From the NCBI GenBank assembly GCA_012838545.1, contig DUPC01000031.1, forward strand, positions 1 to 34,147: DNA of 34,147 bases, in the 5' to 3' direction. The position numbers and the translations under genes are program-made. Under the pieces are notes generated by a model. It had not been told where the DNA came from. It made no database searches and saw only the letters and a list, made by a program, of their open reading frames with translations. Of this stretch, positions 12,926 to 31,927 are shown one piece after another (positions within the stretch are counted from its first letter, which is position 1; each line of letters opens with the position of its first letter). This DNA is from Acholeplasmataceae bacterium (lineage in GTDB: Bacteria > Bacillota_I > Bacilli_A > ML615J-28 > CAG-313).

Positions 12926-13966
12926 ATGCGTGTAAGAAAAATAATAATATTATTAATATCCATTTTATTTCCACTAATTGTAACAACCTTTATTGCCTTT
13001 TATTCTTACGGCGCCGTGGGCGGCTGGGTGAGAAACGAAAATCGATTTTACGAACATTATTTCAATAACAGGTATTCCACCGAAGAACAAATCGAACGCT
13101 CTGTTCGTTTCTCTTCTGCAAAATATCAAAAGAACGTCACTAACGTAACATTCAGAGACCCAGACACCAACGGATTACTCGAATTAAACAACGGCACATT
13201 GAATTTGGCTAATGCTTTCTCTATCGAATCTTACGCAATCTTGAACGAAACCGACACAAACTTTACGATTCAATACACGTTCTTTATCTATGATATCGCA
13301 TACGGTACTACAGAAGACCCGATAGTAAAACCGGGGGAATTATATCTCGTTTCCGTTAAAGGCGTAGGAGACGAAGCCGATTTGCATCTACGTTCGGCTC
13401 TCGATACCTTAAAGGATTCGCTCAAAGGAGATAACCCTTCCACCGGCGCTGCAACCCCAGCGGTTTCGCGGTCTGGAAGTTTTCCTATTTTTGACAATAA
13501 TGCCAATGACCCGGAAAAAGCTGACGACGCCCATTATGTATATACGATTAATCCAAACAATACTTATCCTTTTACTCATGTTGACGATTTAGGCAATGAA
13601 AAAGATATCGAATCTGTTCCGTTCTTAATAACCAGAGAAGCAACGTTTGCAATAGTTCAGAAACTAGGAACCGACGAAGACCCAATCAAAGTTTGGACTA
13701 TCGGTACATTAAGAAATATTAAATCCTCAACAACCAGCAACAACGATTTGAATTTTAACACTTTGCCAAACCTTAACGAAGGTTATAAATCAGATATAAA
13801 AACAGCAGGATACTTGAAATTCGTTTGGCCAACCCTATTATGGCAATCAGCTATCGCATTTGTCATTACTTCGGGATTATCATATTTGTTTTATCATATT
13901 TGGACTATCGAGGAAGGGGAAAATCAAAAATTAAAACCAACAACTATTAAGAAGGTTAAGAAATAG
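12926..13966 (+). CDS. Membrane-anchored protein of unknown function
   Basis: 346 aa, not recognised. It has an N-terminal hydrophobic helix (residues about 5-28), a long polar domain of about 270 residues rich in Asn, Asp and Thr, and a second helix near the C-terminus (LLWQSAIAFVITSGLSYLFYHIW, about 308-330). A basic tail follows. The topology suggests an extracytoplasmic domain held between two helices. It reads from GAGGTGAACATATATG and is followed 32 bp later by a TtcA-like gene, with a small hairpin plus T-rich run (AGGTC/GACCT) between them that may partly terminate. These two genes are the only plus-strand genes left of dnaA. No conserved motif allows a function call. Confidence 0.85.
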   Translation: MRVRKIIILLISILFPLIVTTFIAFYSYGAVGGWVRNENRFYEHYFNNRYSTEEQIERSVRFSSAKYQKNVTNVTFRDPDTNGLLELNNGTLNLANAFSIESYAILNETDTNFTIQYTFFIYDIAYGTTEDPIVKPGELYLVSVKGVGDEADLHLRSALDTLKDSLKGDNPSTGAATPAVSRSGSFPIFDNNANDPEKADDAHYVYTINPNNTYPFTHVDDLGNEKDIESVPFLITREATFAIVQKLGTDEDPIKVWTIGTLRNIKSSTTSNNDLNFNTLPNLNEGYKSDIKTAGYLKFVWPTLLWQSAIAFVITSGLSYLFYHIWTIEEGENQKLKPTTIKKVKK

Positions 13967-16299: not shown

Positions 16300-16565
16300 A
16301 AAAAATAGTCCTTAGGAATTGCTTCCTAAGGACGAAAATCTCGCGGTGCCACCTTAGTTCACGATAATTTAAGGAAAATACATATATATTATCGTGCCCT
16401 CGTTTGTCCATAACGCCGGATTAAGCGGGTAGTTCTACTTTCAAGTTTGATTTCTTCTACCACTCCGAGGTGTTTTTCCATTAAGTGTTTCTGTTAAGTT
16501 TCCACTATCCTTAACTCACTGGAAGAAACTTTCTTAATATACTCTTCCTCTTCATCGTTTTGTTT
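16300..16565 (-). ncRNA. T-box riboswitch leader of asnS
   Basis: On the minus strand the leader holds the GAAGAGGAAGAGTA motif of Stem I and an internal loop with AAC triplets (AACAGAAAC), matching an asparagine specifier codon. The T-box sequence AAGGTGGCACCGCGA lies at 16355-16341. A terminator follows: GTCCTTAGGAA / TTCCTAAGGAC with loop GCAA and a TATTTTTTTT tail. CTAAGG before the T-box can pair with CCTTAG of the terminator arm, forming the competing antiterminator. Uncharged tRNA-Asn would favour read-through into asnS. Confidence 0.93.
16308..16333 (-). terminator. T-box regulated terminator before asnS
   Basis: An 11-bp perfect stem with a GCAA tetraloop followed by TATTTTTTTT on the minus strand. 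Its 5' arm overlaps the antiterminator pairing region, as expected of a regulated terminator. Confidence 0.92.
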
Positions 16566-22363: not shown

Positions 22364-23374
22364 TTAATATGTTTTTATCTTTTGATAGTCAACCCATGCT
22401 TTGGTTATGATTTCTTGGTTGTCGCTTCCCAAAACTTTTGCGATAACGTAAATTTTGGAGATATTATATATTTTGTTGATTTCGACATAATTGGTCGAAG
22501 GCATAATAGTTGATTGATTGACGCATCCGTAATAGGAGTCGATTAAAAGATAATCGCTGAAATATTCTTCGGTATCAGTCGGATGGTTTGCCACTTGGGC
22601 ATAGATTTCGACAATCATGTGCTTCATGGAAATACCATCGATTGATTTTGCGGTCAAATAAGTGCGGATTCTATCGCTTGTTTCGCCGCTAACGCGTCTT
22701 TCGATTCGTAAATCGAACAATTCGCCTTCATTAACCAAATAACCTTTTTTGCCTGCGGTTTCGTTGTCGATCAAACGTTCCTCAAAAGAATCAAATTCAA
22801 TATTATCCAAATCTAACGCTTCTACCTGATAGGTAAAGTTTTTAAAATCGGATTTGCCGGTTTCATTGTTTCGGATTTCATAATAAATACTTACATACAG
22901 TTTTATGGGTTTATTGTCTAATTTACTGTATTCTTCGGTTTTTTCGTCGTAATCGTTGCTGGTTTTGCCTAGATTGGACCAAGAAGCAAAACTCGCCGAA
23001 GTATTGCTCCAGGTACTCGCTTTGCCTTCTTTATATAATAGGTTGCCTTCGGCTGTAACAGCGGTCAAAAATCCGTGTACGTTAACAACCATGGCGCTCG
23101 AATCTTTTTTCGTTAAATACATAAATACATCCCAAAAGGAGTGTTCTTTGTTTTTGTCGGCATCATCCGTACTCGGAATATACCTCTTTTCGCGTTTTTT
23201 TAGGGTAACCATTAAATTTTCGTCATAGGGGGTTGTGGCGTAGTCTTGATAATTGGCATCGATTGCAGGTTGAAACAAAACGTTCAATAACACAATTAGC
23301 GTTGCCAATGCAACCGTGTACACTACTAAAACCAAAACTTTTACTTTTACGCTCAATTGCGAAAATTTATGCAT
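22364..23374 (-). CDS. Uncharacterised membrane-anchored protein beside oriC
   Basis: 336 aa, not recognised. One N-terminal hydrophobic helix (residues about 10-31, VKVLVLVVYTVALATLIVLLNVLF) is followed by a large presumably extracytoplasmic domain with many charged residues and beta-like stretches (PIKLYVSIYYEIRN, MKHMIVEIYAQVA, YVEINKIYNISKIYVIAKVLG). There is no lipobox and no second helix. It is transcribed alone, divergently from dnaA, from its own promoter inside the origin region. It resembles the 346-aa protein at 12926 in general layout (membrane anchor plus large domain), but I see no convincing sequence similarity. Function unknown. Confidence 0.85.
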   Translation of the reverse strand: MHKFSQLSVKVKVLVLVVYTVALATLIVLLNVLFQPAIDANYQDYATTPYDENLMVTLKKREKRYIPSTDDADKNKEHSFWDVFMYLTKKDSSAMVVNVHGFLTAVTAEGNLLYKEGKASTWSNTSASFASWSNLGKTSNDYDEKTEEYSKLDNKPIKLYVSIYYEIRNNETGKSDFKNFTYQVEALDLDNIEFDSFEERLIDNETAGKKGYLVNEGELFDLRIERRVSGETSDRIRTYLTAKSIDGISMKHMIVEIYAQVANHPTDTEEYFSDYLLIDSYYGCVNQSTIMPSTNYVEINKIYNISKIYVIAKVLGSDNQEIITKAWVDYQKIKTY

Positions 23375-23443: not shown

Positions 23444-23586
23444 TTTTCCACATTATCAACATGAGGAAAACAATTGGGAAAACTCTCCCTAGTTTTCCAC
23501 AGGAAAACTTTTTAAAAAATGTTTATTAATGTTTTAGCCAATTTTTTTGTCATTTTGTGATATATTATTAGGAAAGAGGTGATATT
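23444..23586 (+). other. oriC part 1: DnaA-box cluster and AT-rich stretch upstream of dnaA
   Basis: DnaA boxes TTTTCCACA (23444-23452), TTATCAACA directly adjoining (23453-23461) and TTTTCCACA (23493-23501) are the local variants of TTATCCACA. Around the third lies the inverted repeat AGTTTTCC-ACA-GGAAAACT (23491-23509). An A/T-rich stretch (23510-23570) follows, up to the GAGGTG ribosome site of dnaA. It probably serves both initiation and dnaA autoregulation. A dnaA promoter is likely near TGATATATT (about 23560), but its -35 is weak. Confidence 0.75.
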
Positions 23587-24972
23587 ATGGACAACGCTCA
23601 TCAGCTTTGGCTTGACGTAAAATCTAGGCTGCAAAACGCAGAACACCTTATCGGAAAAACCGAATACGAAGAATTGATACAACCCATCGATACGATTCAC
23701 AAGGTTTCCGGAGGTTATATTTATCTTGTAGTATCTTCCATGTTGGAAAAATATCGCCTAGAGAAGTTTTATTTGGAAAAAATGAATCAGGTTTTGGTAA
23801 CTATCACCAATGAGGTTGTCAAATTCAAAATAATGACCGCAGAAGCTGCCGAAAAAGAAAAAGAAAGCAAAATCGATGAACCTTTTCAGGTGGCGGATAC
23901 GGTTAACAAACGCGTTTTGCGTCCTGAATATACTTTCGACAACTTTGTTACCGGCGAATCCAATCGGTTTGCTTTCCTGACTGCAATGAAAGTCGCGGAA
24001 TCCCCTCACGTTACGGTTAACCCGCTGTATATTTTTGGGGAAGTAGGGCTAGGAAAAACCCATCTTATGACCGCAATCGGTCACTTCGTGCTTGACAACA
24101 ACATCAACGCCAATGTGGTTTATACGACCGCCCAACAGTTTGCGGAGGATTATTTTACCGCTACCACAGCCAAAAAACCAGTAGCGATCGAAAATTTCTA
24201 CCAACATTATCGCGAAGCTGAGTTGTTATTGGTCGATGATGTCCAATTTTTGTCTGGAAAAACCAAAACCCAAGAGGAATTTTTTAAGGTTTTTGAATAT
24301 TTGTTCGAAAACAACCGCCAAATCGTCTTAACTTCCGATCGACCAGCTTCCGAACTTGAAAATATTATGGCCAGATTGAAATCGCGATTTAGCTGGGGCG
24401 TTCTTGTCGATATCAAAAAACCAGATTTAAATCTGCGAAAATCCATTCTGAAACGCAAACTTCCTTTTTTAATTAAGGATTATTCCGAGTTTCCGGAAGA
24501 CGTTATCGAATACATTGCGCTACATTTTGACGACAACGTCCGGGATTTGGAAGGTGCGCTTCGCCGTTTTATCTATTATTGCGTCTCTTTGAATGTTGAT
24601 TTTTCCATCGAAAATGCCCAAGTGGCGCTTGATGCGATAATCTCGCGAGACAAGACAAGCGTTCAACCGGACTATAACGATGTAATCGAACAGGTGAAAA
24701 CTTCTGTTGCGCGTTACTTCAATGTTTCTATGCGCGACCTGGCGTCACAATCAAGACGGAAAGACTTGGTTTATCCGCGTCAAATTGCTATTTACATAAT
24801 AAGGACGCTTTTCGACGTCCCTTTAAAGAAAGTCGGAGAGTTCTTTGGCGGACGCGATCACGCGACAGTGGCGCATGCGGAAAAAAAGATAGCTTCACTG
24901 ATTGAATCCGATTGGGCTGTGAAGCAAGATGTTGAGAATTTATCCAAAAAGTTTAAAGAAGAGACTACTTAA
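23587..24972 (+). CDS. dnaA: Chromosomal replication initiator DnaA
   Basis: 461 aa. Domain I occupies roughly the first 80 residues, with a short charged linker to about 105. The AAA+ domain starts YTFDNFVTGESNRFA and includes Walker A GEVGLGKTH (151-159), Walker B LLLVDDVQFL and RLKSRFSWGV (sensor/arginine region). C-terminal domain IV carries the DNA-binding signature VGEFFGGRDHATVAHAEKKI. DnaA binds the nearby 9-mers and opens the origin. It is followed by an 85-bp gap with further boxes and then dnaN, the conserved dnaA-dnaN pair. The start follows GAGGTGATATT. Confidence 0.99.
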   Translation: MDNAHQLWLDVKSRLQNAEHLIGKTEYEELIQPIDTIHKVSGGYIYLVVSSMLEKYRLEKFYLEKMNQVLVTITNEVVKFKIMTAEAAEKEKESKIDEPFQVADTVNKRVLRPEYTFDNFVTGESNRFAFLTAMKVAESPHVTVNPLYIFGEVGLGKTHLMTAIGHFVLDNNINANVVYTTAQQFAEDYFTATTAKKPVAIENFYQHYREAELLLVDDVQFLSGKTKTQEEFFKVFEYLFENNRQIVLTSDRPASELENIMARLKSRFSWGVLVDIKKPDLNLRKSILKRKLPFLIKDYSEFPEDVIEYIALHFDDNVRDLEGALRRFIYYCVSLNVDFSIENAQVALDAIISRDKTSVQPDYNDVIEQVKTSVARYFNVSMRDLASQSRRKDLVYPRQIAIYIIRTLFDVPLKKVGEFFGGRDHATVAHAEKKIASLIESDWAVKQDVENLSKKFKEETT

Positions 24973-24991
24973 TTGCTGAATTTTTAAAAAG

Positions 24992-25025
24992 TTTTCCACA
25001 TTTCCACAGTGTTAATAATAATAAA
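24992..25025 (+). other. oriC part 2: DnaA boxes plus DnaA-trio-like repeat in dnaA-dnaN gap
   Basis: TTTTCCACA (24992-25000) and ATTTCCACA (25000-25008) are two DnaA boxes in the same orientation. They are followed by GTGT and then four TAA triplets (25013-25024). Boxes followed by a short spacer and TAG/TAA trinucleotides is the layout of the basal unwinding element described for B. subtilis incC. Opening would then start in the A/T-rich stretch to the right. Confidence 0.65.
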
Positions 25026-25057
25026 CAAAAAAGAAATTTAAATAAAGGAGATTGACT

Positions 25058-26182
25058 ATGAAATTTACGATGAATCGAGAGATTCTTTTAGATGCTTTAA
25101 ATCATGTTTCTAAAGGGTTATCTTCCAAAACCCCAATGCCGGTCCTTTCGGGGATCAAAATTGAAGTAAGTCGCGAAAACATAATTTTGACAACGACCAA
25201 CCGCGAAATATCGGTTCAAATTGTTTTAGACACAAGCGAGCAGGTAACCGTATACGAAGAAGGGGACTGCCTTGTGCCCGGTAAATACTTTATTGAGATT
25301 ATCAAAAAAGTCGAAGGGAAGACTGTCGACTTCACCTTATTTGAGGAAAATACCATCAAGATATTATCGGATCGTTCCAATTTTACCTTAATCGCCCTCG
25401 AAAAAACCAATTTCCCAGATGTATCGTTTGAATCGCTGGGAACACCAATCAATATTAAAAGCACTTTATTAAGACAAATTATCAAACAAACCGCTTTTGC
25501 TGCCGGAACATCGGAAGCCAGAGTCGTATTAACCGGCGTTTGTTTTGAATTGAAAGACGACAAACTTGAAGTAGTTGCTACTGACAGCTATCGCTTGTCC
25601 AAGAAAGTCACTCAATTACCGGAAAACCATCAACCTATTCAAATCAATATCCCTAGCAAGGCGCTTGAGGAATTAAATAAAATCCTTGAAAACAAGGACA
25701 CTGATGTCGAATTGTTTATTATAAGCAACAAAGCCTTATTCAAAATTCAAAATATTGCCTTTATGACACGGTTAATTGAAGGGAATTTCCCAGATACAAA
25801 CAGCCTTTTTCCTAATACCCATATTGTCGAAATTGAATTCAACAAAAACGATCTCCTCGCTACAATCGATCGAACGCAAGTTTTCACAGGAAATGACATT
25901 TCGAGCACTATAAAGATGGTTCTCAATCGTGACAAGACAGTGCACGTTTTCTCCAGTTCAAGCGAAATCGGAAGAGTTGTAGATGAAATATACCCTTTAA
26001 AAGTCCAAGGAATTGACCAATTTCAAGTCGCTTTCAGCGCTCGATACTTCTTGGAAGCTTTAAGAGCCTTTGAGTCTCAGGTGGTCAGTATGAAGTTAAC
26101 AGGCGAACTCAAACCATTTACCATAACCGGCCAAAACGACGACAATTTGATTCAATTGATTCTCCCAGTAAGGACATTTTAA
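25058..26182 (+). CDS. dnaN: DNA polymerase III beta subunit (sliding clamp)
   Basis: 374 aa. It has the three-domain clamp pattern: MKFTMNREILLDALNHVSKGLSSKTPMPVLSGI, then the SEARVVLTGVCFELKDDKLEVVATDSYRLS region, and a C-terminal end FTITGQNDDNLIQLILPVRTF that forms part of the partner-binding cleft. It encircles DNA and holds the polymerase. The track begins at TTG 25052, but that codon abuts GGAG (25047-25050). ATG 25058, 7 nt after the SD, is the likely start. An intrinsic terminator follows the stop. Confidence 0.99.
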   Translation: MKFTMNREILLDALNHVSKGLSSKTPMPVLSGIKIEVSRENIILTTTNREISVQIVLDTSEQVTVYEEGDCLVPGKYFIEIIKKVEGKTVDFTLFEENTIKILSDRSNFTLIALEKTNFPDVSFESLGTPINIKSTLLRQIIKQTAFAAGTSEARVVLTGVCFELKDDKLEVVATDSYRLSKKVTQLPENHQPIQINIPSKALEELNKILENKDTDVELFIISNKALFKIQNIAFMTRLIEGNFPDTNSLFPNTHIVEIEFNKNDLLATIDRTQVFTGNDISSTIKMVLNRDKTVHVFSSSSEIGRVVDEIYPLKVQGIDQFQVAFSARYFLEALRAFESQVVSMKLTGELKPFTITGQNDDNLIQLILPVRTF

Positions 26183-26185
26183 ATA

Positions 26186-26213
26186 AAAAAACCTTGATAT
26201 TTCAAGGTTTTTT
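26186..26213. terminator. Bidirectional terminator between dnaN and parA
   Basis: AAAAAACCTTGA / TCAAGGTTTTTT is a 12-bp perfect stem with a 4-nt loop. It gives a T run in both directions and serves convergent dnaN and parA. Confidence 0.88.
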
Positions 26214-26223
26214 GCTTATTTTG

Positions 26224-27009
26224 TTAAATTTTAATTTCAGAAAAGGTCGACAACAAGTCTCTTTTAATCTCGTCACGGTTTTTTTGATGAAATTTTGAAG
26301 GCATTTGGTGTTCGTCGAAGACGCTGACCCCCATCTCTTGAAGGTTCCGAATAACCGCTTTTTCCTTGATTGGGGAGATGATTTTGGCATCTGGAGTATA
26401 GGTTTTTACTTGTGTCTTTAACTTCTTCAAACAGGTGTTCGGAGCCAGCTTAATTGGGTGGTATCCAGTGGGTACAATGTACCTAACTTTGCCCAAATCG
26501 ATGTCAGAGTCTGTAAAATACTGAATTGTATTAATAAAACCGTCTAAACCAAGCGTATCGAGGCCCACTACAAGAAGGATATCATCGCTTAAGTCGAGTA
26601 ATATTTCAGTCAAGCGACTACTCGAAGGCGGAAAATCGATAAAAATATAGTCAAAAAAGCGTCGAAAATAGTCAATTAACTGTCTTAATTTGGATTCTTG
26701 CGGCCTTCTTAGCGTTAAAGTAAGCGAAAGTCTGTCTGTATTTAAGGTTTTAATGATATACATATCAGGTCTTGCCTCAAAAACGATGTCGTTGGGTTGA
26801 CATTCGCCTGCTAAAAGGTGTTCGAAGTAGTTGTCATCTCTTTCACCAACAAATTTCTCTGCACCAAAGATTTTGAAAATGCTGTTTTGGTCGTCGGCAC
26901 TTAAAATTAAAACTCTTTGTCCTTTGGCTGCATGATAGTGAGCTAGGTATCCAAGGAACGTGGTTTTACCGACTCCGCCCTTTTTACAAAAAACTGATAC
27001 GACTGGCAT
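26224..27009 (-). CDS. ParA/Soj family partition ATPase
   Basis: 261 aa. The deviant Walker A KKGGVGKTTF lies at residues 9-18, and the Walker B-like YIFIDFPPSS at about 126-135. The general ParA/MinD order is kept (LILSADDQNS, LLVVGLDTLGLDGFINTIQYF). The protein is short and lacks an N-terminal helix-turn-helix, as in Soj or small type Ib plasmid ParA proteins. It lies 1 bp after a ribbon-helix-helix gene on the minus strand, next to dnaN, where Soj/Spo0J often reside. It probably drives segregation of the origin region or positions another cargo. No classical ParB gene is in the window. A MinD-like role is less likely because no C-terminal amphipathic helix is evident. Confidence 0.92.
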   Translation of the reverse strand: MPVVSVFCKKGGVGKTTFLGYLAHYHAAKGQRVLILSADDQNSIFKIFGAEKFVGERDDNYFEHLLAGECQPNDIVFEARPDMYIIKTLNTDRLSLTLTLRRPQESKLRQLIDYFRRFFDYIFIDFPPSSSRLTEILLDLSDDILLVVGLDTLGLDGFINTIQYFTDSDIDLGKVRYIVPTGYHPIKLAPNTCLKKLKTQVKTYTPDAKIISPIKEKAVIRNLQEMGVSVFDEHQMPSKFHQKNRDEIKRDLLSTFSEIKI

Positions 27010-27010
27010 C

Positions 27011-27340
27011 TTAGATCATCCCTTCTCGCTGCAATTTTTCTCTACACGCTTCTTCGATGAATTCCGAAAACATAATTCCGCGATTTACGCACGCAATTTT
27101 AATCTGTCTTCTGAGGTTTCTATCCATAGTAGAAGTGTATTTTTCTCTACCTACTAATTCTTCAACATAACCACGCTTTGAAGATTGGGTTCTTGCGGCT
27201 TTTGGTTGTTGATAAGTGGGTTGTCTAACCACTTTTTGGGGCTCTGGTTGCGCGACTGGTTGTTGCTGTACTACTGTTTCAATAGGCGTTTCTTCAAAAA
27301 GTTCATCAAAAGGGTTCCTTCTCTTTTGTGTTGGATCCAT
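27011..27340 (-). CDS. Ribbon-helix-helix DNA-binding protein, probable partner of ParA
   Basis: 109 aa from ATG 27340, which follows GAAGGAGGAAG; the track's longer 153-aa version runs into the upstream noncoding DNA. Residues 1-55 are low complexity, rich in Gln, Pro and Val (VVQQQPVAQPEPQK). The C-terminal half, YTSTMDRNLRRQIKIACVNRGIMFSEFIEEACREKL, has the strand-helix-helix pattern of CopG/Arc-type RHH proteins. Immediately upstream of parA with a 1-bp gap, it fits a centromere-binding ParB analogue of the type Ib plasmid kind. A long repeat-bearing A/T-rich region lies just upstream, where its binding sites might be. The family call rests on pattern, not on a database match. Confidence 0.75.
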   Translation of the reverse strand: MDPTQKRRNPFDELFEETPIETVVQQQPVAQPEPQKVVRQPTYQQPKAARTQSSKRGYVEELVGREKYTSTMDRNLRRQIKIACVNRGIMFSEFIEEACREKLQREGMI

Positions 27341-27370
27341 AAAACTTCCTCCTTCAAATATTCTGCTAAA

Positions 27371-27399
27371 AGTATAGCACAACTTAAAAAACAAAGCAA
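27371..27399 (-). promoter_or_regulatory. Promoter of RHH-parA operon
   Basis: Minus strand TTGCTT (27399-27394), 17-bp spacer ending TGC, TATACT (27376-27371), an extended -10 type. It lies upstream of the GGAGG site of the RHH gene. Confidence 0.6.
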
Positions 27400-28669
27400 G
27401 CAAAAAGCAATATTTATTCAAATAAGGATTTAAACACATACATAAAAACATAAATAAATACAAATTGAACAATTAACAATCAGATCTCAAGAAAACGAAA
27501 AATTCACCCTAAACTCTATATTTTTCCCAGAAAAGCGTAAAAGCATACTTTAAATCGGACTCCAAAATTGATTTTGAGCCCAAAAAGGCGCCTTTTTTCG
27601 CATTTTTATTTTTTTTATCAAAAGTTATTCGGGCCGAATTAAAAAAACTCAAAAAAACCGGCAAATTTCGGTTTTTGATAAAACCCAAGCAACAGCGCTT
27701 TGGATTTTGCAAAAACATCTCAAAATACATAAATAAATAAAAAAATAAAAACGCAAAAACATAAATAAGGCACCACAAACACATTTTTTGGACTTTAAAA
27801 AAGCCGAAACAAAACAAAAATTTTAAATTAAAATAAAAAACCTTTAAAATAAAACCAAAAACAAAAGAAACAAATCTTTTAAATTAAAATTAAACCAAAC
27901 GCGACACAAAATTAAAAACCTTTAGACTAAAAGAATTTGTTGAACGTTTTTAGAGAAAAACGTTTTAATTTAAAAACAAAAACGTTTTAAAAGCATTTAA
28001 ATTAAAACAATAACCCGATCTAAATTTTCACAAAACCTTTAATGTAAAACCAATTTTGCTTTATTTTGATCTGATGGAGGATTTTTTTGAAACGGTTTTT
28101 TTAAAACAACTTTGGATTTTGAGCTTTCGGTCTCTTTAATAGAAGCAAAAAAGAAAACAAATATGTAAATACCGAAACAAATAAACCCATAAAACAATAA
28201 AAAAGTATATAAGGTTTGACGAAAACACAGAAAAACCTAAATCGGTAAATACATAAATAAATACCAAAAACATAAATACGTATATAAAGGAAAACAGAAA
28301 AGAATAAAACCCTAAATAATACTTTACCTAAATAAATAAAAAAATAAAAGTTCTTTTATTCTTATATTTAAAAAATAAAAACTTATAAAATAAAACTAAC
28401 AAAAAATCTTACAAAAAAGGCTTGTTTTTTATATTTTTGAAGTCTTTTGACCTATGTCAAAAAATTAAAATAGTTTAATTTTGCGTATATAATATATAAA
28501 TAAGGAATATACATATTTACGTACATGCTTAATTTTTCTTTTGACTTAGGGCAAAAACGTCAAATTTTTTATAGGAAAAAATCGCATGGCAACAAGCTGT
28601 CTAAAAGATGTCAAAAAAAAGCCCTTTTTTCTTGTTTTTTGATTAAAAAATAAATAATGTTTTTACTGG
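27400..28669. other. Large A/T-rich noncoding region with repeats, candidate centromere or origin element
   Basis: No credible gene is present over about 1.27 kb; the one long ORF (27509-27817) reads as low-complexity hydrophobic sequence. Composition is visibly far more A/T-rich than the flanks and uneven between strands: 27841-27900 has 10 C and 1 G. ACATAAATA recurs at 27448, 27727, 27759, 28251 and 28270; the 14-mer ACATAAATAAATAC is exact at 27448 and 28251. AAACGTTTT-type palindromes cluster near 27940-27990, and GTCAAAA/TTTTGAC heptamers cluster at 28445-28616. It lies between the RHH-parA pair and recF-gyrBA, close to oriC. Confidence 0.6.
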
Positions 28670-28695
28670 CAAATTTTTAAAATTTGTGGTATAAT
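28670..28695 (+). promoter_or_regulatory. Promoter with internal palindrome upstream of S4-recF-gyrBA
   Basis: TATAAT (28690-28695) preceded by TGG gives a perfect extended -10; a -35-like CTGGCA precedes it. The spacer holds the inverted repeat CAAATTTT-T-AAAATTTG (28670-28686), perfect over 17 nt, a possible operator or DNA-shape element. The GAGGTG site and ATG 28721 follow. Confidence 0.6.
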
Positions 28696-28720
28696 TATTC
28701 ATGTAATAACGAGGTGTTCT

Positions 28721-28936
28721 ATGCATAAAATTTCCATTAAAACTGACTTTATTACCTTAGGCCAATTACTTAAACTTTCCGGGGTTATTACCAACGGCGG
28801 AGAAGCCAAATTCTTTCTTCTCAACAATAAAATACTTGTTAACGGAGAGGCCGAAAATCGACGTGGAAGGAAGCTTTTTGGAAGCGAAATAGTTAAAATA
28901 AACGATGATTTTGAGTTGTTTGTTGAGAAAAAATGA
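28721..28936 (+). CDS. yaaA: S4-domain protein YaaA (RlbA-type)
   Basis: 71 aa. The protein is essentially one S4 RNA-binding domain: ITLGQLLKLSGVITNGGEAKFFLLNNKILVNGEAENRRGRKLFGSEIV. Small S4 proteins of this type lie immediately upstream of recF in many Bacillota. They are thought to bind RNA or assist ribosome assembly, but the role is not firm. Its stop overlaps the recF start as ATGA, so the two are coupled. Confidence 0.96.
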   Translation: MHKISIKTDFITLGQLLKLSGVITNGGEAKFFLLNNKILVNGEAENRRGRKLFGSEIVKINDDFELFVEKK

Positions 28937-30024
28937 AGCTATTTGGGATTGAATTAATCAATTTCCGCTGTTTCGCAGAAAAGAATTTTAATTTTGGAGA
29001 TAATCTGAATATAATTTTTGGTCCGAATGCTGTCGGCAAGACGTCTTTATTAGAAGCTGTTCATGTTTTAGGATTGACTAAATCAAATCGGACCAATAAT
29101 GATCAGGATATGATTCAAAACGGGAAGGATTATTTTTTAGTAAAAGGTTTTTTTAACAAAGGGGAAATATCGGATACTGTTTTGGTTTGCTATTCCGGTA
29201 AAGGAAAGCAAGTAAAAAGAAATAACGAAATCTTTAGAAGTTTAGGTGAATACATTGGTTTTTTTAATGCTGTCTCCTTTGCTCCTTCTGATTTGATTAC
29301 TTTTTTTGGGGCTTCCAGTAAAAGGCGGAGAGAGTTCGATATGGCTTTTTGCCAACTCTCCAAGCAGTTTTTATACTGGTCTACTATTTACAACAGGTTG
29401 CTTAAAGAGCGGAACGTTCTGTTAAAAACGTTGTCATTCGATGACAATGTAAAAACAAAAAAGCTTCTTGAGGTAATTGATCAAAGGTTAATCGAAGCCG
29501 GGGAACGTGTGATTCAGGATCGTCAACGTTATTTAAAACAGTTAAATTTGATTCTTAAGCGAATCCACAAACAGATAGCTGAACAGGAAGAATTAAAAAT
29601 CAATTATCATGCGTCTTGTTCTTTAGGAAACTATGATAAGAGTTTAAAAGCAAACTTTGAAAACGATATAAAGAGAGGTTCAACCAGTGTTGGTCCGCAT
29701 CGGGACAACTTTGTCTTGACAATAAATGATAAGGATTTATGTGTTTATGGGTCACAAGGACAACAAAGAAACGCTGTTTTAAGCATCAAATTGGCGCTTG
29801 TCGAGTTGATTTATCAAACAAAAGGAGAGTATCCGATTTTGTTGCTTGATGATGTTTTTAGCGAACTAGACAAAATTCGACAAAACCAGTTAATCAAGAC
29901 TTTAAACAAATACGTTCAAACCATCATCACAACCGCAACACTATCAGATATTGATAAAGGACTTGTTAATCAAGCAAAGCTAATTGAGTTAAAAGAAGGA
30001 GGTGGATATCGTGACGCTAAATAA
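28933..30024 (+). CDS. recF: DNA replication and repair protein RecF
   Basis: 363 aa. Walker [15 protein letters not shown] lies at about residues 30-43, after the typical start [19 protein letters not shown]. The signature region [19 protein letters not shown] and Walker [14 protein letters not shown] are present near the C-terminus. RecF recognises gapped DNA and acts with RecR (also in this window) to load RecA. It overlaps the S4 gene by ATGA and the gyrB start by 14 bp. Confidence 0.98.
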
Positions 30025-31927
30025 GAATGACGTTGACAGATACGATGCCAGTAGCATTCAGGTGCTCGAAGGACTTGAAGGTGTAAGAAGAAGACCGGGG
30101 ATGTATATCGGCACCACCGGACCAAAAGGATTACATCATTTGGTGTGGGAAATTGTTGATAACTCGATTGACGAAGCTCTTGCGGGGTATTGCGATACAA
30201 TAATTGTGGAAATCTTTGGGGATAACTTCATAAAGGTTGTTGATAACGGTCGAGGAATGCCAATCGACATTCACCCTAAAACGGGATTATCAACCGTAGA
30301 AACTATTTTCACGGTTTTGCATGCTGGTGGAAAATTTGACGGAAAGAACTATAAAGTGTCCGGCGGTTTGCACGGCGTTGGCGCCTCTGTCGTCAATGCG
30401 TTAAGCGAATGGTTGGAAGTTTATGTTCGCCGGGATTCCAAAGTGTATTTTCAAAGGTTTTCGCGCGGAAAGAGCGAAGGAATTTTAAAAGAAATTGGCG
30501 AAACTGAAGAAACCGGAACAACGGTCGTCTTTAAACCGGACGCAGAAGTCTTTAAAGATACAACGGTTTTTGATTTTGAGGTTCTTAGGCAAAGGATCCA
30601 ACAATTAGCCTTTTTAAATAAAGGTTTGAAAATAAGTATTGTTGATAAGCGCATTTCTCCCGCAAAAGAACTTCATTACTGCTACGAAGGCGGGATTGCG
30701 GAATATGTTAGATATTTAAACAAAGCAAAATCAACAATCCATAATGAGGTAATTATGATAGAAGAAGAAGTAGAAAGGGTCGTTGTCGAAATCGGGTTGC
30801 AATATACCAACGATTTTGTCAGCAACATCTACTCCTTCGTCAACAATATCCGAACTCAAGAAGGCGGAACCCATGAAGAAGGTTTTAGAACCAGCTTGAC
30901 GCGGATTCTCAATAACTATGCAAAAAACGCAGGATTCCTCAAAAAAGACGAAAGTTTATCCGGAGATGATGTTCGCGAAGGTTTAACCGCCATCGTTTCT
31001 TGTAAAATTGCGGAACCGCAATTTGAAGGTCAGACTAAAACCAAATTAGGCAATACCGAGGTAAGACGGATTGTATCCCAGGCAATGACCGATAAATTCG
31101 AAGCCTTTTTGTTGGAAAATCCAAATGTTGCCAAAACAATTGTGGAAAAGTCGTTATTGGCTTTACGAGCTAGGATTGCAGCAAAAAAAGCCCGCGAGGC
31201 AACGCGGAGGAAGAGTCCGCTTGATTCATTGGGCTTTGCATCAAAACTGGCCGATTGCCGAGCTAAGGATCCGAAAAGAACAGAAATATACATCGTGGAA
31301 GGAGATTCTGCGGGAGGTTCTGCCCGCCAAGGCAGGGAAAGCGAATTTCAAGCGATTCTTCCATTAAGAGGTAAAGTATTGAATGTGGAAAAAGCTCGCC
31401 CCGACAAGATTTTCAGTAACAAAGAAATTATTTCTTTGATTCAGGCGATAGGTACCGGCATACAGGACGATTTCAACATCGGTGATTTGCGTTATCACAA
31501 GATTGTCATCATGACCGATGCCGACGTCGATGGTGCGCATATTCGAACTTTGCTATTAACCTTTTTTTACCGCTATATGCGCCCTTTGATTGAAGAGGGA
31601 TATATTTTCATTGCTCAGCCGCCATTGTTCAAAATTTCGCAAAATAAACGGGTAGAATACGCTTATAGCGATGAAGAGCTTGATCAAAAATTAAAGAACT
31701 ATACGGGCAAGGTAAATATCCAAAGATACAAAGGTTTGGGAGAAATGAATGCGGAACAGTTGTGGGAAACCACTATGGACCCAAAACGCCGCACCTTGTT
31801 GAAAGTAACCCTAGATGACTCAATTGAAGCTGACCGAATTTTCAGTACTTTAATGGGTGATGACGTCGAACCGAGAAGAGAGTTTATTGAAGAGAATGCG
31901 GTATACGTTAAGAATCTTGACATCTAA
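30011..31927 (+). CDS. gyrB: DNA gyrase subunit B
   Basis: 638 aa from GTG 30011. The GHKL ATPase domain has [27 protein letters not shown] and [17 protein letters not shown]. The Toprim domain has [14 protein letters not shown], then [22 protein letters not shown], and the C-terminal [21 protein letters not shown]. With GyrA it introduces negative supercoils. The track starts at GTG 30002, but that overlaps the GGAGG site (29998-30002); the GTG at 30011, 8 nt downstream, fits better. Overlaps the recF end by 14 bp. Confidence 0.98.

Follow-up and report, generated by a model that had tools for sequence, protein, structure and literature searches.

The chromosomal partition proteins of bacteria have been described in review as belonging entirely to the HTH class (PMC5002424), and no earlier description of a ParA-RHH chromosomal system was found in the open-licence literature. 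The closest described systems that employ an RHH protein are the type Ib systems of plasmids and the SegAB system of archaea. On the plasmid pSM19035, for instance, contiguous 7-bp units (WATCACW) are each occupied by one RHH dimer, and at least four contiguous units are required for the full activation of ParA (PMC9499535). In the archaeal SegAB system, the SegB sites are 13-bp palindromes (TCTAGA S TCTAGA) that are distributed over the chromosome, with 46-49 sites in S. solfataricus (PMC12284271).

The locus considered here lies in a draft genome of 1.71 Mb (G000; 65 contigs, 96% complete), on a contig of 103,759 bp (G000:C3), and the window is the whole analysed stretch of 34,147 bp. The gene order in the window is dnaA, dnaN, parA (minus strand), rhh (minus strand), an AT-rich gap of 1.38 kb, an S4-domain gene, recF, gyrB, and gyrA; the neighbours conserved next to parA (dnaA and dnaN, 23587-26182) and on the gap side (the S4-domain gene, recF, and gyrB, 28721-31927) are all encoded on the plus strand. 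The stop codon of rhh (27011-27013) is separated from the parA ATG at 27009 by a 1-nt gap, with a GGAGG shortly before that ATG, and the two genes form a tight operon with the spacing of a coupled one. A terminator-like hairpin (26186-26213) lies where dnaN and parA converge, a weak indication given 2 such sites against the 1.5 expected in shuffles, and a simple promoter scan performed no better than shuffles. Elsewhere in the window, a T-box leader (Rfam RF00230, 128.7 bits) is found at 16325-16564 on the minus strand, upstream of an asparaginyl-tRNA-synthetase-like gene.

The product of parA (26224-27009, minus strand) is a Walker-type ParA ATPase of 261 aa that carries a deviant Walker A motif (KGGVGKT) together with A' and B motifs, matches Pfam AAA_31 (E 4.5e-22), and, in the manner of type Ib proteins, has no N-terminal HTH domain. 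Its orthologues across the order are 45-69% identical, and the closest named match, at 66% identity, comes from a MAG of Anaeroplasma bactoclasticum (NCBI order Anaeroplasmatales). With the Soj of the same host it shares 25% identity and is, by this comparison, a far-diverged paralogue different from Soj.

The partner gene, rhh (27011-27340, minus strand), encodes a candidate centromere-binding protein of 109 aa, with an N-terminal KRRNPF motif, a variable Gln/Pro-rich linker, and a C-terminal RHH domain (approximately residues 65-107). Neither Pfam nor NCBIfam has a model that scores above its cut-off for this protein; a profile built from 22 sequences nevertheless matches the archaeal-virus RHH protein SvtR (PDB 2kel, E 6e-9), and the C-terminal helices of the AlphaFold model (pLDDT ~90) resemble the folds of Arc, CopG, SvtR, MatP, and CdbA, although the Foldseek E-values are weak, the domain being so short. 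The original prediction of a ParA gene paired with a small RHH gene at these positions is confirmed. Alignment of the 22 orthologues reveals a short K-R-x-[NS]-P-[LF] motif conserved at the N-terminus, in which R7 and P10 (window numbering) are invariant; a linker of variable composition and length follows, and the C-terminus holds a KYT-x-T-M strand with two helices behind it. The Gln/Pro-rich N-terminal arm that had been singled out is real; however, because the alignment conserves the N-terminal motif and the C-terminus while the linker varies, this arm is an unconserved linker of the present species, and the conserved piece is the K-R-x-[NS]-P-[LF] motif.

The probable oriC is a cluster of DnaA boxes at 23444-23501, upstream of dnaA, where three boxes match at 8/9 positions and exact boxes occupy the same place in relatives; a 336-aa open reading frame between rnpA and dnaA (22364-23374, minus strand) adjoins this cluster. 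The stretch at 27.3-28.7 kb was considered as a DnaA-box origin and rejected, given that the boxes cluster at 23444-23501 instead and none is present in the stretch itself, where the local cumulative GC-skew minimum falls (27-28 kb). Because the boxes lie upstream of dnaA and are missing from the array described below, the AT-rich region is regarded as an origin-proximal repeat array and not as the origin. Some 4 kb thus separate the pair and its array from the likely oriC.

The order, which comprises gut and environmental relatives of Anaeroplasma, was sampled in 43 genomes, all of them draft assemblies, from two families (f1 and f2) and 22 genera. No ParB_N domain occurs in the host genome, and no Spo0J-type ParB was found in the 43 genomes; weak ParB_N matches appear in eight of them (best E 3e-11), of which the single match inspected is a ParB-nuclease/DNA-methylase fusion. 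Elsewhere in the class, ParB at E < 1e-28 and parS palindromes are carried by most families. The parS sequence (TGTTNCACGTGAAACA) has no match in the host genome at up to one mismatch, and in some relatives a few one-off matches stand isolated. The original prediction had named, as the finding that would refute it, a canonical parB together with parS at another place in the genome, and neither was found. The same prediction erred in placing the pair where Soj and Spo0J would be expected, because a canonical soj resides at its normal mnmG-rsmG-soj locus on another contig (L094:4641-5402, on G000:C38), orphaned and followed by an mscS-type channel gene in place of spo0J. The mnmG-rsmG-soj order is also present in the six relatives that were read (G006, G007, G008, G011, G013, and G037); the orphan Soj persists, and an overlapping role for it could be envisaged.

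Components of the condensin are likewise missing, with the SMC hinge in 0 of the 43 genomes and no ScpA above cut-off in any of them. A causal link from the loss of SMC to the gain of the RHH protein was rejected, since ScpA is also missing in families f4, f13, and f15, which keep ParB; with families f7, f10, and f18 of the class lacking ScpA as well, the loss of condensin is broader than the ParA-RHH system and is unexplained by it. As a separate observation, five genomes of family f7 (G047, G059, G081, G090, and G098; 98-100% complete) have no strong Spo0J-type ParB (best E 1e-12), and neither ScpA nor an RHH protein of the order's family was found in them. The absences across the order are indicated by the agreement of many genomes that are incomplete drafts.

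In the AT-rich intergenic region upstream of rhh (27341-28720) lie the promoters from which rhh-parA and S4-recF-gyrBA diverge, as well as a candidate centromere in which TA steps are phased at 4/8 bp with the unit TAYRTAWW. When this interval is compared in 30 loci (the window and 29 relatives), the words TACATAAA, ATACATAA, and CATAAATA exceed the Markov-2 expectation by a factor of 9-12 and are present in 26-30 of the loci, and nearly all of their spacings are multiples of 8 bp. Strong sites number 219 against 31 in Markov-2 simulations, with 109 of the 142 pairs within 80 bp in the 8-bp register against 0.3 in simulations, and the averaged unit, TAYRTAWW, has a palindromic core. The strict core (TACATA/TATGTA) reaches 10.5 per kb, a 16-fold enrichment over the 0.66 per kb of the control, which comprised 165 kb taken from elsewhere in the same group. 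Core pairs share one register at 200/339 for the same orientation and 190/335 for opposite orientations, where chance is 1/8; these pairs are not independent and are supplied mostly by family f2, family f1 alone giving 23/34 in register. A single register shared by both orientations is what would be expected of a two-fold symmetric protein. Moreover, the autocorrelation of TA steps at lag 8 attains z = 5.5 for the window alone, 16 for the remaining f1 loci, and 28 for f2, and sliding windows confine the phasing signal mainly to the interval upstream of rhh.

In the window itself, the in-phase runs exceed those of all 500 simulations and fall into six clusters from 27433 to 28533: 27433-27466 (TACATAAAAACATAAATAAATACA, directly upstream of rhh), 27726-27765 (beginning with TACATAAATAAATAAA), 28162-28193, 28325-28348, 28218-28284 (from TACATAAATAAATACC to AACATAAATACGTATA), and 28510-28533 (TACATATTTACGTACA). 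This array is degenerate, weaker and more broken than those of f2, and a strict three-unit pattern finds no match in the window at one mismatch and a single match at two; searched genome-wide in G018, the three-unit pattern clusters on C7:34099-35881, directly upstream of rhh. Distant secondary sites, in which respect ParB systems differ, were not evident by pattern sampling, a method with which degenerate AT-rich sites are hard to see. A repeat array next to the operon is a further type Ib-like trait, read here from sequence only and weak in the window. Two other weak signals of TA phasing are recorded: a 4-bp phasing of 4.5 units in a coding region at 12951-13650, the only signal flagged in the window outside the array interval and probably due to chance, and a secondary one that, in a relative rich in AT, spans the end of parA and dnaN (L036:6301-7350).

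The ParA-RHH pair and the origin-proximal array are, with good probability, the chromosome's own partition system, standing in place of ParB-parS in this order, with RHH binding and segregation as the inferred steps; the comparative evidence gives strong support to the distinct system that had been proposed, in which an RHH protein would be the centromere-binding component without ParB or parS. It might be argued instead that the RHH protein is a local transcription regulator only, that the array is a long operator for rhh-parA and S4-recF-gyrBA, and that ParA serves in regulation or in the control of DnaA, on which Soj-family ParAs can act. The array does fill a divergent promoter region, plasmid RHH partition proteins do autoregulate, and the parS sites of pSM19035 overlap promoters (PMC9499535); yet more than 1 kb of phased sites far exceeds what an operator needs, the RHH protein has a ParA ATPase for its partner, Spo0J and parS are absent from the same genomes, and autoregulation is in any case compatible with partition, all of which renders a purely regulatory role unlikely. 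Considerably less probable still is the proposal that the array has no tie to RHH binding and represents only a tandem (AAAT)n repeat of low complexity or an AT-rich element at which oriC unwinds. Some tracts in the window do read as AAAT or TAAA microsatellites, and the region, at 22-26% GC, contains the skew minimum mentioned above; nevertheless, slippage was rejected as the source of the whole array, as it cannot place cores of opposite orientation in one 8-bp register, the core is identical in f1 and f2, the DnaA boxes are elsewhere, and the signal is largely limited to the interval upstream of rhh.

The partition pair is fixed and single-copy across the order, which answers the proposed check for its conservation in relatives: a strong ParA orthologue is present in 38 of the 43 genomes and the RHH protein in 37, always in a single copy. 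In G004, masking as N covers the start of parA and all that lies upstream of it, and the further misses are G008, G011, G013, and G037 (65-82% complete) and G006, which is without both parA and rhh despite being 95% complete (140 contigs). Outside the order, the RHH profile matches in none of approximately 350 genomes of the class that were sampled, and ParA matches at E < 1e-20 are confined to two genomes of family f10, G170 and G200. In every locus of the order that was compared, dnaN stands on the parA side, with S4/recF/gyrB on the other side wherever the sequence reaches. The distances of ParA track those of DnaN (28 loci, Mantel r 0.86, 0/999 permutations), and this shared divergence speaks for a long vertical inheritance of ParA. 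The suggested capture from a plasmid is accordingly unsupported: the pair is chromosomal, between dnaN and recF-gyrBA, and no close relatives of it were found in 72,556 plasmids, 50,697 phages, or IMG/VR. That the locus should be a recently captured plasmid or phage partition cassette under passive carriage is scarcely credible, for although the pairing of ParA with an RHH protein is typical of plasmids (PMC5002424, PMC9499535), the present pair keeps the same place beside dnaN across 22 genera, co-diverges with DnaN, and has no close plasmid, phage, or viral relative.

The two f10 genomes, each a single contig, possess a canonical ParB together with a ParA that is 42-45% identical to that of the window and is not near dnaN. 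Upstream of this ParA is a small protein with two K-R-x-[NS]-P-L motifs (the pairs lie at L104:8175-9332 and L105:8028-9151), which recalls the arrangement in the order, whereas no array was seen at the f10 pair. Because a profile comparison between the order's RHH family and the small f10 proteins was negative, their C-terminal domains being not demonstrably homologous, and because the f10 pair gave no confident match in the PDB, the resemblance is described as one of layout only. The f10 genomes are consistent with an ancestor that had both systems and a subsequent loss of ParB, which falls short of proof, and their combination of ParB with a related ParA pair suggests that a switch of partition system may pass through a dual stage.

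If the ParA-RHH pair does partition the chromosome, RHH dimers would bind, probably in a cooperative manner, to the TAYRTAWW units of 8 bp that lie between rhh and recF, and the resulting partition complex would be origin-proximal, at a distance of about 4 kb from oriC. By means of its flexible arm, the protein would then offer the K-R-x-[NS]-P-[LF] peptide conserved at its N-terminus to ParA-ATP on the nucleoid and stimulate the ATPase, so that sister origins might be pulled apart along a ParA gradient. ParG-type proteins have arginine-bearing arms, and it is by analogy with these that the N-terminal motif may be seen as an activator of ParA; binding of the array, activation, and segregation of chromosomes by this route are what we infer. 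Binding would probably also autoregulate the rhh-parA operon, because the array overlaps its promoter. The broader proposition, held with rather less assurance but still favoured, is that the order has lost both ParB-parS and SMC-ScpAB and segregates its chromosome by ParA-RHH on a centromere of 8-bp iterons; on a bacterial chromosome this would be the counterpart of archaeal SegAB, and it would depart from the statement that only HTH-type ParB proteins serve bacterial chromosomes. We class the system as known parts in a new role and with a new site. Here a replacement of ParB can be seen along with its candidate centromere, and the order in which it is fixed is also without SMC and ScpA. This opens to test how a chromosome of 1-2 Mb is segregated and folded when neither ParB CTPase clamps nor condensin loading is available, and whether chromosomal partition modules can be exchanged.

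Compared with bacterial ParABS (Soj-Spo0J-parS), the system of the order similarly places a ParA ATPase and a DNA-binding partner near oriC, and Soj is kept at its usual locus; it differs in having no ParB/CTPase and no parS, in the use of RHH for HTH, and in its locus. With the type Ib RHH partition systems of plasmids (pSM19035 delta/omega and TP228 ParF/ParG), it shares a small ParA without HTH, a small RHH partner whose N-terminal arm is flexible, and short contiguous repeat arrays, whereas the order's system is chromosomal, origin-proximal, and fixed across the order, has no plasmid homologue that could be found, and displays an 8-bp unit with a palindromic core and an N-terminal K-R-x-[NS]-P-[LF] motif of its own. 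The nearest chromosomal analogue is archaeal SegAB, which likewise unites a chromosomal ParA orthologue with a site-specific RHH binder whose sites lie upstream of the operon (PMC12284271). The relation of the partner's sequence to SegB is compared by description only, the most enriched words at the array being of the TACATAAA type and not TCTAGA, and the best PDB match of the partner being SvtR; and the order's system differs from SegAB in being bacterial and in relying on one dense array of 8-bp units.
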